Below are positions 13,694-21,493 of a stretch of 24,599 nt of DNA, piece after piece. Position 1 is the first letter of the stretch. Each line of letters begins with the position of its first letter. Both the position numbers and the translations under genes were made by a program. The notes under the pieces were generated by a model, which was not told the DNA's origin, did no database searches, and was given only the letters and a program-made list of their open reading frames with translations. The stretch is from a virus, in the IMG/VR virus record IMGVR_UViG_3300026186_000008, positions 1 to 24,599 of that record; one strand, written 5' to 3'.

Positions 13694-14230
13694 ATGGCCA
13701 ATTTGACATTTGATGAAATTATAGAAGTTGTTTTAGATCATGAAGGTGGGTACGTTGATGATCCAGCCGATAGGGGTGGTGCCACTAATTGGGGCGTGAC
13801 GCAAAAGGTCTATGAAAATCATGTAGGGTATGAATGTGATAAAAATGAAATAAAAGAAATGTCAGAAGAAATGGCAAAAGAAATTTATTTTGAAAAATAT
13901 TGGAAACCTAGTAGATCTGAAAAGTTACCTGAAGAAATTCGTGAAACTTATTTTGACATGGTAGTCAATCATGGTCAGGGTGGTGCAGTTAAGATCTTGC
14001 AACAGGCATGTAACAATAAGCGTAAACCAGAGAATCAAATCGCAGTTGATGGTGGCATTGGCCCTAATACAATCAAAGCTGCAGCTAATCTTAAAGATTG
14101 GGAATTGAAAGTAGAACGTTCTGGATTTTATTGGAACTTGGTTTTTGATGGTGCTAAATACACTAAAAGAACTAGTCAAGTTAAATTTATTCGGGGTTGG
14201 ATTAGGAGATGTTTTAATTTAGATGTTTAA
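13694..14230 (+). CDS. GH108-type endolysin
   Basis: A 178-residue lysozyme-like enzyme of glycoside hydrolase family 108, cleaving peptidoglycan at lysis. The diagnostic N-terminal motif DHEGGYVDDPADRGGATNWGVT is present with catalytic Glu17, and a YFEKYWKP segment and DGGIGPNTIKAA (substrate-binding region typical of the family) follow. An excellent SD, AGGAGG, lies before ATG 13694. There is no signal peptide, so release through a holin is expected; the candidate holin is two genes downstream. It overlaps the exonuclease gene by 8 nt. Confidence 0.9.
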   Translation: MANLTFDEIIEVVLDHEGGYVDDPADRGGATNWGVTQKVYENHVGYECDKNEIKEMSEEMAKEIYFEKYWKPSRSEKLPEEIRETYFDMVVNHGQGGAVKILQQACNNKRKPENQIAVDGGIGPNTIKAAANLKDWELKVERSGFYWNLVFDGAKYTKRTSQVKFIRGWIRRCFNLDV

Positions 14231-15590: not shown

Positions 15591-15824
15591 ATGTTTAAGG
15601 CAAGAGTTGATATGTTGAATCCTAAGCTTGAGCTTGAAGTTGTGACTCCGACTTATGATGAAACAGTGAAATTGTTGGATTCTCTTATTGAAAAGTTGAA
15701 GCCAAAATCAAGTGATGTCTATTCATCAGGATATGATATCAAATTAGATGTATTAGAAAATGATAGTAGTGGATTGAAGATTACTACTTCGGATGAAAAA
15801 CTTAATACTCATATGGACTTGTAA
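15591..15824 (+). CDS. Small protein upstream of tmRNA, 77 aa
   Basis: A 77-residue protein beginning MFKARVDMLNPKLELEVVTP, with alternating strands and a helix DETVKLLDSLIEKLKP, suggesting a compact alpha/beta fold. GGAAAAGGG and AAAAAGG lie before the ATG. It is the first gene after P2 and its stop abuts the acceptor end of the tmRNA, so RNA processing must cut close behind it. Function unknown. Confidence 0.65.
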   Translation: MFKARVDMLNPKLELEVVTPTYDETVKLLDSLIEKLKPKSSDVYSSGYDIKLDVLENDSSGLKITTSDEKLNTHMDL

Positions 15825-16145
15825 TCGCTTGAGTTTGAGTTGTTGGTATTTTGGACGCCGGTTCGACTCCGGCCAGCTCCACCATTATGGGGCTGTAATT
15901 GGAATTCGACAGGATATGACAATGATGAGGACAAGATTACCTGTGGTGGCAACAGCCAGAAAGTTGCAAACAAACAATTGGCAACAACCAATTAAAAATG
16001 GCTGCTTAAAAGAGATAGCAAGCCGGGGTTTGGTCAATACCTGTCAACAGAAATTGACCATTTTAAATCACATTCCCTTGGTGATACCAAGCTGATGTGA
16101 TGAAGGATAGCCGGCCGTCCTATAAGATACAAGTGGCCGGCGCGA
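15825..16145 (+). ncRNA. ssrA: Circularly permuted (two-piece) tmRNA
   Basis: tmRNA that rescues stalled ribosomes. The 3' acceptor part comes first: TTTTGGAC, T arm GCCGG-TTCGACT-CCGGC (15857-15873), CAGCTCC (15874-15880) and encoded ACCA. After only TTAT (15885-15888) comes the 5' part: GGGGCTG (15889-15895) pairs with CAGCTCC over 7 bp, then TAATTGGAATTCGACAGG, as in bacterial tmRNA 5' ends. Best tag frame: GGC 15980 to TAA 16007-16009, GNNQLKMAA, with an A-rich strand before it and the stop in hairpin GGCTGCT/AGC-A-AGCC (P5). Later: hairpin 16031-16060, nested hairpin 16067-16101, and a GC-rich pseudoknot (AGGA/TCCT, GCCGGCC/GGCCGGC, 16104-16141). The outer ends are estimates. Maturation would yield separate acceptor and coding RNAs. 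Confidence 0.92.
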
Positions 16146-16154
16146 TTTAAAAAT

Positions 16155-16421
16155 ATGGAAAATATATTCGGTATTGTACTTTCGGTGTCATTTAGTGTGG
16201 CTTATATTCCACAGATAATAAAAATGATTAATCGAAAGAGTTCAGCTGATGTTAGTTTGATGATGTTGATTATTAATGGCATAGGTTATTATTGTGGATT
16301 GGGATATGTCTTAATGAAAGATTTGAATGCATTTTGGTTGTGTTTTAATTATGTATCAGGGTTGATAATGACCCTTTTATGTATTATCATGTGGTCAATT
16401 TACAAAGGAGATAAAGTATGA
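16155..16421 (+). CDS. SemiSWEET-like PQ-loop membrane protein
   Basis: An 88-residue protein with three transmembrane helices (about 3-22, 34-56, 60-82) and the PQ-loop signature SVAYIPQIIKMINRKSSADVS, with Pro19-Gln20. Size and layout match bacterial SemiSWEETs, which dimerise to form a sugar facilitator. Substrate cannot be told from sequence; other PQ-loop proteins carry amino acids or act as receptors. No SD is present: the ATG lies about 10 nt after the tmRNA. Its stop overlaps the protease start by 4 nt, so the two are coupled. A metabolic transporter in a phage is unusual and may alter sugar flux in the infected cell. Confidence 0.8.
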   Translation: MENIFGIVLSVSFSVAYIPQIIKMINRKSSADVSLMMLIINGIGYYCGLGYVLMKDLNAFWLCFNYVSGLIMTLLCIIMWSIYKGDKV

Positions 16422-17251
16422 ATCAAAAAGATTTACATGAAAAGATTTTATATCCAGTGACTAGAGTAAAGGCTGGAAAAGCTGGTGGTTCGGGTGTTTT
16501 GGTATATAGTGAACCAGATCCAAAAGAAGAAGGAAAATATATTAATATCATATTGACATGTCAACATGTTATTGATGGTGCGATTTCTGTGAGGGATGAA
16601 TGGGATTCGCTATTGAAAAGAGAGATAAAAAAGGATATTAAAGAAGAAGTTTCCAATGAGGTTTTTGATTATGATGGTTCTAAAATATCTTCAGCTAATA
16701 GTTCACAGGCAGAAATTATAGCTTATGATAAAGGACATGATTTGGCAGCTGTCAAATTACACAATAGCAGGCCACAAGATCATGTTGCGTCAATCTACCC
16801 GAAAGATGATATTGATGATTTGCAATTATTTGATGAAGTATGGACAAGTGGATGTAGCTTGTTACATGATCCTTTTTCTAATAAGGGTGAATTGACATAT
16901 CTACGAGAAATGATCGATCAGAAATCCTATATTATGTATAATGCTCCATCTATATTTGGGAATTCAGGTGGTGGAGTATTCCATGGCCAAAGTGGAACAC
17001 TGTTGGGTTTGTGCTCTCGTATTACTAATATCCAATTAGGATTTGGTATTGATGTTATGACATGGATGGGATTTGGTACGCATCCATCTAGGATGTATGA
17101 GTTTTTTGAGCATCATGAATTACAATTTATTTATGATGGTTCAGATTATTACGATGCAGAGGAGCGTAGGAAAGAACGTCAACGTAAGTCATTACGGCAT
17201 TTATTCATAGAAGAAAAAGATGCTGATAAAGTAGAAGTTTACGAAACATAA
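16418..17251 (+). CDS. Trypsin-like serine protease
   Basis: A 277-residue chymotrypsin-fold protease. The triad is readable: His50 in LTCQHVID, Asp108 in KGHDLAAVKL, and Ser183 in FGNSGGGVF, the nucleophile motif of the DegP/trypsin group. There is no signal peptide and no PDZ domain, so it probably acts in the cytoplasm or within the virion. The C-terminal ~50 residues are highly charged. It overlaps the SemiSWEET-like gene by 4 nt and is followed by AAAGGAG and the next gene. T4-like phages have their own prohead protease (gp21), which is a different fold, so this is an extra protease, possibly aimed at host or tagged proteins. Confidence 0.85.
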   Translation: MNQKDLHEKILYPVTRVKAGKAGGSGVLVYSEPDPKEEGKYINIILTCQHVIDGAISVRDEWDSLLKREIKKDIKEEVSNEVFDYDGSKISSANSSQAEIIAYDKGHDLAAVKLHNSRPQDHVASIYPKDDIDDLQLFDEVWTSGCSLLHDPFSNKGELTYLREMIDQKSYIMYNAPSIFGNSGGGVFHGQSGTLLGLCSRITNIQLGFGIDVMTWMGFGTHPSRMYEFFEHHELQFIYDGSDYYDAEERRKERQRKSLRHLFIEEKDADKVEVYET

Positions 17252-17559: not shown

Positions 17560-18261
17560 ATGAAAACGTTTAAACAATATCAATATGATTCAAATATTTT
17601 AACTTATGATGATTGGGGCCCTGACAGTGATAATAATAATGCAATTACTGAAGCTGGATTGGCTAGGATTATTCAGAAAGTTAAAGTAGATCAAGAAGAT
17701 TTCATTATTATTACTGCTTATCGGGGTGAATTTGATAAGAAAGAAAATATTGCAAGAAATCGTGATTTGAGGGGTTGGTTTAATCGTCAAGAAATGGGTG
17801 TGTATCAATTAGTCGGGCATTGGCGTGAGTGTTCAATTGAGAATGTTCCTTACGATCAATGCCCAGCTAATAAATTGGTTGATGTAGTTGAACGTTCATA
17901 TCTTGCAGTTAGACCTGATACTATGTCCACTAAAGATTTCTTCAGCAAGTGCAAATTTCTTACTAAGAAATGGAAGCAGGATGGTTCTGTAATTCGTATA
18001 CAAGAATTGTTTGGTGATGAAATTCAAATTTTAGAAAAGAGTGGTAACACGTTTGGTATCGGATCAGGAATAAGCTTAGGTAAGATTTCACAAGCTTATA
18101 GTCAACATGTCAAAAAATTAAATACACCATTTGTTTTTGAAGGTGTTGAAGTTCCATCTACTAATTTTGGTAAGCAGATAGCTGAAAAATATAGTTTCAA
18201 TTATCCTGTTGGTATTTGGGATGATTTGAAATCATGGGAAAGTATTGTTACTAACATTTGA
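17560..18261 (+). CDS. DUF3293-like protein, 233 aa
   Basis: A 233-residue protein with SD GAGGGAG. MKTFKQYQ is a start common among T4-like phage proteins. Residues 45-120 resemble DUF3293: FIIITAYRGEFDKKENIARN, then GVYQLVGHWREC, then a VERSYLAV strand. The EN-x-ARN motif after a buried strand is the best marker. The C-terminal third (VEVPSTNFGKQIAEKYSFN) is separate. The family has no established function. The assignment is from memory of the pattern and should be read as tentative. Confidence 0.5.
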   Translation: MKTFKQYQYDSNILTYDDWGPDSDNNNAITEAGLARIIQKVKVDQEDFIIITAYRGEFDKKENIARNRDLRGWFNRQEMGVYQLVGHWRECSIENVPYDQCPANKLVDVVERSYLAVRPDTMSTKDFFSKCKFLTKKWKQDGSVIRIQELFGDEIQILEKSGNTFGIGSGISLGKISQAYSQHVKKLNTPFVFEGVEVPSTNFGKQIAEKYSFNYPVGIWDDLKSWESIVTNI

Positions 18262-18705: not shown

Positions 18706-18849
18706 ATGATTATTGGAGCTGAAAGGATATATGTAAATTATCAAGAAATAATTAAGCAAAAGCTAAAAACTGATCGGAAGATAGTTAAGAATGTTTCTAA
18801 ATCTGTTAAGTCAGATAATAATTTGAATAAACGTAAGTATAGGAAATGA
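18706..18849 (+). CDS. Small basic protein, 47 aa
   Basis: A 47-residue Lys-rich ORF from ATG 18706, starting MIIGAERIYVNYQEIIKQKL, ending with KSDNNLNKRKYRK. It lacks a strong SD. It ends 14 nt before the chosen start of the flagellin homologue, and its stop overlaps an alternative flagellin start (ATGA at 18846). Charge suggests nucleic-acid or surface binding. Confidence 0.45.
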   Translation: MIIGAERIYVNYQEIIKQKLKTDRKIVKNVSKSVKSDNNLNKRKYRK

Positions 18850-18863
18850 AAGAGGTAAATTGT

Positions 18864-19694
18864 ATGTTAAGTGGTATAACCGCACAGACTTTGGGTAGGT
18901 ATCAAGAAGCAACTAGAATGGTTGAGGAAACTATGTCTAGGCTGGCATCTGGAATATCTGATATTGGTTCAGCTGATAAGATTAGGGTGGGCAGAATCAA
19001 TAATACTATCCATACTTTACAAACAGCACATAAAGTTGTTAAACAGAATCAGGATTTGTTGGAATCAGCACTGGCAGGATCTGATAGTATTACATCTGTT
19101 GTTGTTAAAATGAAAGAGGTCGCAGCCGAAGCTCAGAATGATGAATTGACATCATCACAACGACAGTCGTTGATGGATGAATACAATGAATTAGCTAAAG
19201 AGATTGATTATGTTGCCAAGAATACTGAGTATGACGGAACAGAATTGATCGATGGTACTTTTGGAACCAAGAGTTTTATCATCGATGGTGTTAATAGTGA
19301 TCAAACAGTTAGTGTTGAATTGGGAAATTTAACATTAGAAGGGTTGCAGATTGGTGGATATACTGATGGTCAGGGTAATATAGTTGTAGCATCTAAATTA
19401 GACACTGTATCTGATGCACAAGATGCAGTGACACGATTGGAAGCCGCCCTTGTCACTTTGGAAGGCGAGCGATCTAATCAGATAGCTAAGATAGAAAGGT
19501 TTGATTTTACAATTGCTCATATGGAACGTATGATTGGAATTAATGAAGAATCTATTGCTACCATTAATGATTTTGATGAAGCATCAGAGATGGCTAAGTT
19601 GACTAGTTATCGAATTGAACAACAAACAGCAATTGCATTGATGGCTCAAGCGCAACAATTATCTGCTAACGTACTACAATTGTTACAGGGTTAA
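18864..19694 (+). CDS. Phage-encoded flagellin homologue
   Basis: A 276-residue protein with the D0/D1 pattern of bacterial flagellin at both ends. N-terminal: MLSGITAQTLGRYQEATRM, then MSRLASG (flagellin ERLSSG), a long helix, and the D1 hallmark EIDYVAKNTEYDGTELIDG leading to KSFIIDG (flagellin EID..T.FNG..LLDG..F.VG). C-terminal: EEASIATI..., then MAKLTSYRIEQQTAIALMAQ and LSANVLQLLQG, matching the flagellin end helix and its QANQ..NVLQLL close. The central D2/D3 domain is nearly absent, as in minimal flagellins. I chose ATG 18864 (AGAGG 8 nt upstream) over ATG 18846. No FliS or FliW is nearby. It could be a virion appendage, a decoy or an acquired host gene. Confidence 0.85.
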   Translation: MLSGITAQTLGRYQEATRMVEETMSRLASGISDIGSADKIRVGRINNTIHTLQTAHKVVKQNQDLLESALAGSDSITSVVVKMKEVAAEAQNDELTSSQRQSLMDEYNELAKEIDYVAKNTEYDGTELIDGTFGTKSFIIDGVNSDQTVSVELGNLTLEGLQIGGYTDGQGNIVVASKLDTVSDAQDAVTRLEAALVTLEGERSNQIAKIERFDFTIAHMERMIGINEESIATINDFDEASEMAKLTSYRIEQQTAIALMAQAQQLSANVLQLLQG

Positions 19695-19740: not shown

Positions 19741-20001
19741 ATGAAAAATGGGATAACTGAAAAGGACTTTTTGGAATTGACTAACGCTCATACTCCTAAA
19801 TCCTTTTCACTAGAAATTGAGAATATAGTTTTTAAAAACCAATCTAGTTATATAGAAGCGGTTTTAGAATATTGTAAAGAGAAAGAAATAGACATGTCTA
19901 TTATTCCAAAGTTAGTTAATAGACAGTTAAAGGATAAACTTGAAACTGAGGCTAAAAAGCTTAATTTTATTGTAGATAATACAGTTGAATTGCCAATATG
20001 A
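19741..20001 (+). CDS. 33: Late transcription co-activator gp33
   Basis: An 86-residue homologue of T4 gp33, which links RNA polymerase (beta flap) to the sliding clamp to activate late promoters with gp55. The helical core SSYIEAVLEYCKEKEIDMSI followed by LVNRQLKDKLETEAKKLNFI matches the T4 pattern (MSYLEATTAFLEENSIPETQ...IIEKIQSEA). Gene order 33-59-32 is that of T4. The 4-nt overlap ATGA with gp59 is also as expected. No SD is present; promoter P3 seems to start at the ATG. It is shorter than T4 gp33 (112 aa) at the N-terminus. Confidence 0.7.
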   Translation: MKNGITEKDFLELTNAHTPKSFSLEIENIVFKNQSSYIEAVLEYCKEKEIDMSIIPKLVNRQLKDKLETEAKKLNFIVDNTVELPI

Positions 20002-20612
20002 CAGCATTTGAAGTATATAAAGTTTATTTGGCTGTAAAATTACATTTTACAAGTGAACATTTTGATATGACTAAAGGAACAGGTGGAGTTAGATGTAAAG
20101 AGATTACGTTCAATAAAAGGCAAGATTGTCATTTTTTTGAACGATTGAGTAGAAAGTATCGTTCAAGCGAATTATTGGGTTTGTTTGTTTCACATTTTGT
20201 TTCCGAATCACAATTTAATAAATTGTACGGAGATGATGCAGATGATACATACAAAGAATGGAAAAAACGCATACAGAGAATGTCCTACACGTTTGAAAAT
20301 GATATCAAATCACTGAATGAAGTGACTGATAATTTTGATAGTTTATTTTCTGTTAATGGATCTGGTTGGCCAAAATTGTTTGATTTACAAAGGATTGATG
20401 ATATATCTATTGAAACGTTTGTTATAATGGATAAATTGTTAGACTTTATTTCACAATTTGACGCAGATATAAAAGAAACACGTCGATGGCCACAAACAAG
20501 CTTGACTTGTAGGAAATATTCAAAATTTCTTCAAGTTGATGAAAGTAAATATCGTAATATACTACGCAATACAGTAGTAATGAATAAGCAGCAACTACAA
20601 GCAGCAATATAA
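19998..20612 (+). CDS. 59: Helicase loader gp59
   Basis: A 204-residue homologue of T4 gp59, which binds fork DNA and gp32 and loads the gp41 helicase. Matching segments include FEVYKVYLAVKLHFTSEHFD (T4 GKSVYKLYLMIKQH), KRQDCHFFERLSRKYRSSEL (T4 KRRDKYFFQKLSEKYKLKEL), a YKEWKKRIQRMSYTFENDI helix and ISIETFVIMDKLLDFI. Length is close to T4's 217. It overlaps gp33 and precedes gp32, the conserved cluster. It works at origins and recombination forks with the proteins from the next gene. Confidence 0.88.
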   Translation: MTAFEVYKVYLAVKLHFTSEHFDMTKGTGGVRCKEITFNKRQDCHFFERLSRKYRSSELLGLFVSHFVSESQFNKLYGDDADDTYKEWKKRIQRMSYTFENDIKSLNEVTDNFDSLFSVNGSGWPKLFDLQRIDDISIETFVIMDKLLDFISQFDADIKETRRWPQTSLTCRKYSKFLQVDESKYRNILRNTVVMNKQQLQAAI

Positions 20613-20629
20613 AGAATAAGAGGATACAT

Positions 20630-21493
20630 ATGTCTAGTTTTGCACAAATGAAGCAGAATCGCCAATCTCAACTCGCCAATTTAACAACTGAATTAGAAAA
20701 AACACAAACTGTCACCAGTTTTGTTGATGATCGCATTTGGAAATGTGAACGTGATAAATCTGGTAATGGATATTCAGTTATTCGATTTTTACCTCCGAGT
20801 GAAGGTGAAGATTTACCTTGGGTACGAGTATGGGATCATGGATTTCAAGGGCCAGGTGGCTGGTACATTGAAAATTCATTGACAACCCTACAACAAAATG
20901 ATCCAGTTTCAGAATACAATACATCATTGTGGAACAATGGTACACAAACTGGAAAAGATCAAGCACGTAAACAAAAGCGGCGCTTGAATTACTATAGTAA
21001 TATTTTAGTTATCAAAGATCCAGCTAATCCTGAAAATGAAGGTGAAGTTAGAATCTTTCGGTATGGTAAAAAAATCTTTGATAAGATTAATGATGTGATG
21101 AATCCAGAATTTGAAGATGAATCACCTGTTAATCCTTTTGATTTTTGGGAAGGCGCTAATTTTAAAATCAAAGTTAGGATGGTTGAAGGATATGTCAATT
21201 ATGATAAATCTGAGTTTGATCCAATTGCACCTTTAGCTGGAAGTGATGAAGAACTTCAATCAGTATGGGAGAAGCAATATCTATTGAATGATTTCCTAGC
21301 AGCTGATAAGTTTAAAAGTTATGGTGAATTGAAAGCCAAGCTCAATCGAGTATTGGGTATTGGTATTGATGATGCTGAAGATACGTCTACACCATTTACT
21401 GAAACTGAGGAACCTGAAATTCCAGCACAGGCTGCAGGAGAATCTACTGAAACACTTTCTTATTTTCAGAAGTTAGCTAACGAAGAATATTAA
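20630..21493 (+). CDS. 32: ssDNA-binding protein gp32 (zinc ligands missing)
   Basis: A 287-residue homologue of T4 gp32, coating single-stranded DNA in replication, repair and recombination. Conserved parts: GNGYSVIRFLPPSEGEDLPW, HGFQGPGGWYIEN, YYSNILVIKDPANPENEGEV, FRYGKKIFDKI, FDFWEGANFKIKVRMVEGY and DKFKSYGELKAKLN. The N-terminal LAN-like basic segment and an acidic C-terminus for protein contacts are present. T4 binds zinc through a CPVCQY region; here it reads DPVSEY (91-96), and only Cys39 remains in the core, so zinc is probably not bound. SD AAGAGGAT precedes ATG. A strong terminator follows. T4 gp32 represses its own translation; no such leader was identified. Confidence 0.95.
   Translation: MSSFAQMKQNRQSQLANLTTELEKTQTVTSFVDDRIWKCERDKSGNGYSVIRFLPPSEGEDLPWVRVWDHGFQGPGGWYIENSLTTLQQNDPVSEYNTSLWNNGTQTGKDQARKQKRRLNYYSNILVIKDPANPENEGEVRIFRYGKKIFDKINDVMNPEFEDESPVNPFDFWEGANFKIKVRMVEGYVNYDKSEFDPIAPLAGSDEELQSVWEKQYLLNDFLAADKFKSYGELKAKLNRVLGIGIDDAEDTSTPFTETEEPEIPAQAAGESTETLSYFQKLANEEY

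Follow-up and report, generated by a model that had tools for sequence, protein, structure and literature searches.

We find that a T4-like phage encodes, in only 88 residues, what is probably a membrane carrier of a phage-associated PQ-loop subfamily with SemiSWEET architecture, i.e. a hinged dimer, lined by N65, that would move a small polar solute. The gene lies in the window, by which we mean the whole 24,599-nt stretch analysed, a 24.6-kb virus contig. For the window protein the fold, the family, the conserved residues and the selection acting on the gene are established. A further proposal, which we hold tentatively and would place just short of an even chance, is that the subfamily represents a phage-specific branch of PQ-loop carriers in which an aromatic residue has been swapped from TM2 to TM1, which moves a cargo that no SemiSWEET is known to carry and which serves as an accessory metabolic gene in diverse uncultured phages. 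To our knowledge, phage-encoded solute carriers have rarely been characterised.

The gene (16155-16421, + strand) is a single continuous frame running from an ATG start to a TGA stop, and the opposite strand contains stops all along its length. Comparison of the window protein with its relative in contig L001 (82% identical) yielded a dN/dS of about 0.22, and the other pairs gave 0.13 (window and L012), 0.26 (window and L002) and 0.06 (L003 and L004). The frame is thus conserved and the PQ-loop gene is clearly under purifying selection.

Membership of the PQ-loop family follows from the Pfam model PF04193, which the window protein matches with 39.2 bits (E 6e-10) at a curated cut-off of 22 bits, a cut-off that is exceeded by all subfamily records scored. 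An AlphaFold2 model built with 21 phage relatives (mean pLDDT 90.2) predicts a bundle of three transmembrane helices: TM1 (residues 2-27; 16158-16235), which is made up of helices 2-15 and 18-27 and is broken at residues 16-17, immediately ahead of P19-Q20; TM2 (residues 35-54; 16257-16316); and TM3 (residues 60-83; 16332-16403). Among solved structures the SemiSWEETs were the best phmmer matches of the window protein (4rng, E 3.9e-5), and a profile of the 21 phage relatives recovered the solved SemiSWEETs with an E-value of 2.9e-9; the family matches are much stronger than chance would give. Structural comparison with 4rng gave TM-scores of 0.82/0.87 in Foldseek for a first AlphaFold model, where the modest E-values (5.6e-3) result from the shortness of the protein, and a Z-score of 12.6 with an rmsd of 1.3 Å across 82 residues in VIA-align for a second one. 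The folds of the mitochondrial pyruvate carrier (MPC) and cystinosin were also matched by VIA-align, with Z-scores (10.5 and 7.4, respectively) below that of 4rng. The predicted fold is therefore securely of the SemiSWEET type. The first-pass annotation had read three helices and a PQ motif within 88 residues as the SemiSWEET plan, looking to a PQ-loop family match and a three-helix bundle; both are found, with P19-Q20 located in the first helix and the bundle superposing on 4rng.

The same annotation had taken the protein for a sugar facilitator, and here the agreement is partial: the fold, the hinge and the pocket asparagine stand, but the profile cut-offs are missed and two pocket residues are replaced. 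The window protein scores 13.7 bits on MtN3_slv, at a cut-off of 23.7, and those members of the phage family that match this model at all reach 13-21 bits; as a control, fragments taken from four solved SemiSWEETs score 34.9-38.7, i.e. over the cut-off. On the NCBIfam model NF037968 (SemiSWEET_2), which was scored on the phage side while the solved-SemiSWEET control covers MtN3_slv, the window protein obtains 30.4 bits versus a cut-off of 80; this is still its top NCBIfam match, with the cystine-transporter model TIGR00951 as a weak second. As judged by the curated profile models, the window protein thus falls outside SemiSWEET. In a tree the phage proteins form a branch apart from the SemiSWEETs with a support of 91/93, a placement that is tentative in view of the long branches.

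The nature of the divergence can be appreciated from an alignment of 54 phage family rows with four reference SemiSWEETs. The hinge residues P19 and Q20 within TM1 (16209-16214) correspond to Pro21 and Gln22 of the SemiSWEETs and are kept in all rows (54/54), as is Y51 of TM2, the equivalent of the gate residue Tyr53, and N65 of TM3, the equivalent of the pocket residue Asn66 of EcSemiSWEET, is kept in 53 of the 54. At the position of the pocket residue Trp50, which is Trp in 4/4 references, the window protein has G48 and the phage rows have Gly (51), Ala (2) or Cys (1), and Thr15, which supports Trp50, corresponds to F13 of TM1 (within 16158-16235), a Phe in 54/54 rows. In addition, every phage row (54/54) has Tyr at the positions of Y45 and Y66, where the SemiSWEETs have aliphatic residues or Ala. 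In TM1 (permutation p 0.002) and TM2 (p 0.012) the conserved positions cluster on a single face, and more weakly so in TM3 (p 0.056), which fits what one expects of helices that line a pocket. Taken at the level of the alignment, the putative pocket of the phage proteins is rebuilt in a concerted manner relative to that of the SemiSWEETs, and we infer that its aromatic platform has shifted from TM2 to TM1.

By homology, the three-helix protein would dimerise in the inner membrane of its infected host, with a central pocket enclosed between the two copies. Tilting of the bundles about the P19-Q20 hinge in TM1 would open the pocket to alternate sides, and a small polar solute would pass down its own gradient, i.e. 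by passive transport. The N65 pair, one from each protomer, may hydrogen-bond the solute, while F13, together with Y45, W61 and Y66, could supply the aromatic platform that the Trp of TM2 gives in SemiSWEETs, and the glycine at position 48 would give the pocket more space. The break of TM1 ahead of P19-Q20 has its counterpart in EcSemiSWEET, where TM1 kinks at Pro21; in that protein, sucrose uptake goes down in the N66A mutant and up in the W50A mutant (PMC4309421). The rise in W50A implies that some substrates can do without the Trp, so that its loss in the phage proteins does by itself leave a sugar possible. Because the SWEET-family cut-offs are missed and the pocket Trp and Thr are replaced, a sugar or polyol is one possible candidate substrate among several.

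The subfamily is found in about 57 other IMG/VR contigs (the union of three scans, counted by contig names), which are up to 217 kb long, and one record of 199 kb holds two of the PQ-loop genes. A T4-type gp32 is present in 9 of the 22 records examined; the remainder are fragments, in which the absence of gp32 means little. No close relative of the window protein was found in cultured phages. The best matches among phage records were a 642-kb uncultured phage record (31%, E 2e-3) and Bacillus phage vB_BcoS-136, the protein of which is annotated as 'PQ loop repeat protein'; when a family member was compared with the latter phage by tblastn, the best match covered 41 residues (46%, E 0.03). A match to Enterobacteria phage Whisky (33%, E 0.6), part of which falls within a gene of the opposite strand, and one to contig L009, spanning just 17 residues, were discarded as chance. 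The plasmids searched contained no match, and two peptide-pattern scans of 84,980 species genomes, one based on the window protein and the other on the 21-row alignment, yielded zero confirmed relatives, although their sensitivity is limited and phage-only status is not thereby proven. A second, distinct group of phage PQ-loop proteins (L005-L008, L036-L041) has Leu and Met at the two pocket positions and retains the Asn, in phages that look Bacillus-type by gene content. No paper dealing with phage-encoded SemiSWEET or PQ-loop proteins was found in the open-licence literature, the coverage of which is incomplete. The earlier suggestion of a new type of metabolic gene was too strong given the annotated vB_BcoS-136 protein and the other viral ones in BFVD; as far as the open literature can be searched, what is new is the conserved change of the pocket and its spread through uncultured phages.

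The source is a T4-like phage, as had been proposed, since a gp33-like late-transcription gene, the gp59 helicase loader gene and gp32 lie downstream of the PQ-loop gene (19741-21493); its gp32 most resembles the gp32 of marine cyanophages and of marine single-cell viruses (53-63% identical). Within this phage group the PQ-loop gene occurs in three settings, namely between a tmRNA gene and a protease gene (window and L001), ahead of a small gene and a flagellin-like gene (L012 and L117), and ahead of a DNA ligase gene (L002), and in all three its stop directly adjoins the start of the following gene or overlaps it. Three protease-bearing members of the group (G025, G028 and G029) have no PQ-loop gene within the 34-53 kb of sequence available for each. 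The three settings within one group, combined with the absence from some relatives, imply that the gene is accessory cargo without a fixed partner. Less closely related phages have yet other genes nearby, namely FolE2 and QueD-like genes (L003/L004), a RecA-like gene (near L024) or a glycosyltransferase gene (before L025). We could not assign a pathway on the basis of neighbours, since FolE2/QueD, phosphoribosyltransferase, glycosyltransferase, RecA-like, DNA ligase and protease genes vary by lineage. In L003 (4868-7621) and L004, FolE2 and a QueD-like PTPS, both over their Pfam cut-offs, are followed by a QueE-like ORF that no Pfam model matches, and the PQ-loop gene comes further downstream, after one or two small genes. 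Near the PQ-loop gene of L012 (542-1495) a heptose-7-phosphate kinase-like (RfaE domain I) gene was observed, scoring 274 bits at a cut-off of 345.

Several neighbouring elements of the window deserve description in their own right. A permuted two-piece tmRNA gene (15792-16100, +) lies upstream of the PQ-loop gene, identified by ARAGORN and by Rfam RF04321 (80.7 bits at 15820-16009); its predicted tag is GNNQLKMAA, its acceptor stem is formed by 15874-15880 and 15889-15895 with a G3:U70 pair, and CCA is found at 15882-15884. L001 also has a permuted tmRNA (tag GNNQLPMAA), and among the records searched no other relative does; a link between tmRNA and transporter was rejected on this ground. 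Permuted tmRNAs are known in phages, for instance in methylophage Melnitz (PMC9004378). A GC-rich inverted repeat (16108-16144, GCCGGCC...GGCCGGC) lies in the gap that separates the tmRNA from the start codon of the PQ-loop gene; it is also present in L001 and is possibly a tmRNA processing or leader element. Downstream, the ATG of a Trypsin_2 serine-protease gene (16418-17251, +; Pfam) overlaps the PQ-loop stop by 4 nt. In L012, L117 and L002 the PQ-loop gene has no protease gene beside it, so that the protease is a neighbour and no constant partner; it is 92-93% identical across several relatives despite differing neighbours and has almost no match in cultured phages. The product of 17560-18261 (+) weakly matches S-adenosylmethionine lyase (21.6 bits at a cut-off of 28) and may represent a counter-defence gene. 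Finally, 18846-19694 (+) encodes a flagellin-like protein of 282 aa, in which Flagellin_N and Flagellin_C both score over the Pfam cut-offs, and which obtains about 100 bits on the NCBIfam flagellin model, under the cut-off of that model. It recurs in 17 IMG/VR contigs (67-100% identity) and has no match among 50,697 phage records at an E-value of 1e-5.

With respect to the role of the PQ-loop protein, a carrier of a non-sugar metabolite (e.g. an amino acid, nucleoside, pterin/queuosine precursor or organic acid), comparable to cystinosin and MPC on the same fold, is a serious possibility that we would nevertheless not yet call probable. The remodelled pocket, the fold matches to MPC and cystinosin, the second rank of TIGR00951, and the location of the gene after FolE2 and QueD-like genes of the pterin/preQ0 route in L003/L004 are all in line with it; nevertheless, the best match in both sequence and structure is a SemiSWEET and the FolE2-QueD neighbourhood is limited to one lineage. 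That the protein is a true SemiSWEET, taking mono- or disaccharides through the inner membrane of the host, we consider rather unlikely. The fold, hinge, pocket Asn and gate Tyr are all the same, and the behaviour of EcSemiSWEET W50A makes a small residue at position 48 compatible with a disaccharide, but the cut-offs of MtN3_slv and NF037968 are missed, the Thr/Trp pair of the references is altered across the whole phage family, and the equivalent Trp is reported, in work cited in PMC4309421, to be crucial for glucose in LbSemiSWEET and AtSWEET1.

A use of the fold as a small membrane scaffold, for instance in superinfection exclusion or anti-defence, and with no carrier role, appears improbable: the gene is accessory, patchy and relocated inside one phage group, a status that is common among exclusion and counter-defence genes, but the Pro-Gln hinge, the gate Tyr and the pocket Asn, which belong to the transport cycle and for which a scaffold would have no use, are (near-)invariant. 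A lysis pore such as a class I holin, for which the small size and the three helices speak and nothing else, was rejected as highly improbable given the clear PQ-loop homology and the gene's position, apart from the GH108 endolysin gene (13694-14230) and elsewhere by DNA ligase or other unrelated genes; the lysis or osmotic role suggested at first likewise finds no support in that position.

On the reading that we retain, that of a phage PQ-loop carrier of SemiSWEET architecture, a very small carrier candidate with a conserved change of its pocket recurs in dozens of contigs from uncultured phages. Knowing its substrate would reveal the small molecule by which these infections are limited, and work on cargo choice by SemiSWEET pockets would gain a natural variant. 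The flagellin-like gene and the nearby permuted tmRNA also merit attention.

Among known systems, the vB_BcoS-136 protein (AYP68302.1) and the L005/L036-L041 group are similarly small phage PQ-loop proteins, and the vB_BcoS-136 gene is also found near a DNA ligase gene, but their pocket positions are occupied by Leu, and by Met or Leu, and the phages are different ones. BFVD contains PQ-loop proteins from uncultured Caudovirales phages and from giant viruses (A0A6J7X7D0, A0A8S5P1N9, which is named SemiSWEET, PQLC, and A0A5B8IPZ2) that share the predicted fold (TM-score up to 0.85); the likeness is one of predicted fold and annotation, with a best identity of 31%. Cystinosin, which is long and built of fused repeats, and the heterodimeric MPC have the fold of the three-helix unit in common with the window protein, whereas their sequence match to it is much weaker. 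The bacterial SemiSWEETs (4rng, 4qnc, 4x5m, 9kax) come closest, with about 85-100 aa, three transmembrane helices, the Pro-Gln hinge in TM1, the pocket Asn in TM3 and the gate Tyr in TM2; they differ from the phage-borne family, which lies under the MtN3_slv and SemiSWEET_2 cut-offs, in that the latter has exchanged Trp for Gly (51/54), Ala or Cys and Thr for Phe, and has gained the invariant Tyr45 and Tyr66. As far as can be told from the models, the window protein would structurally work like a SemiSWEET, while it falls short in the sequence tests by which that family is defined.
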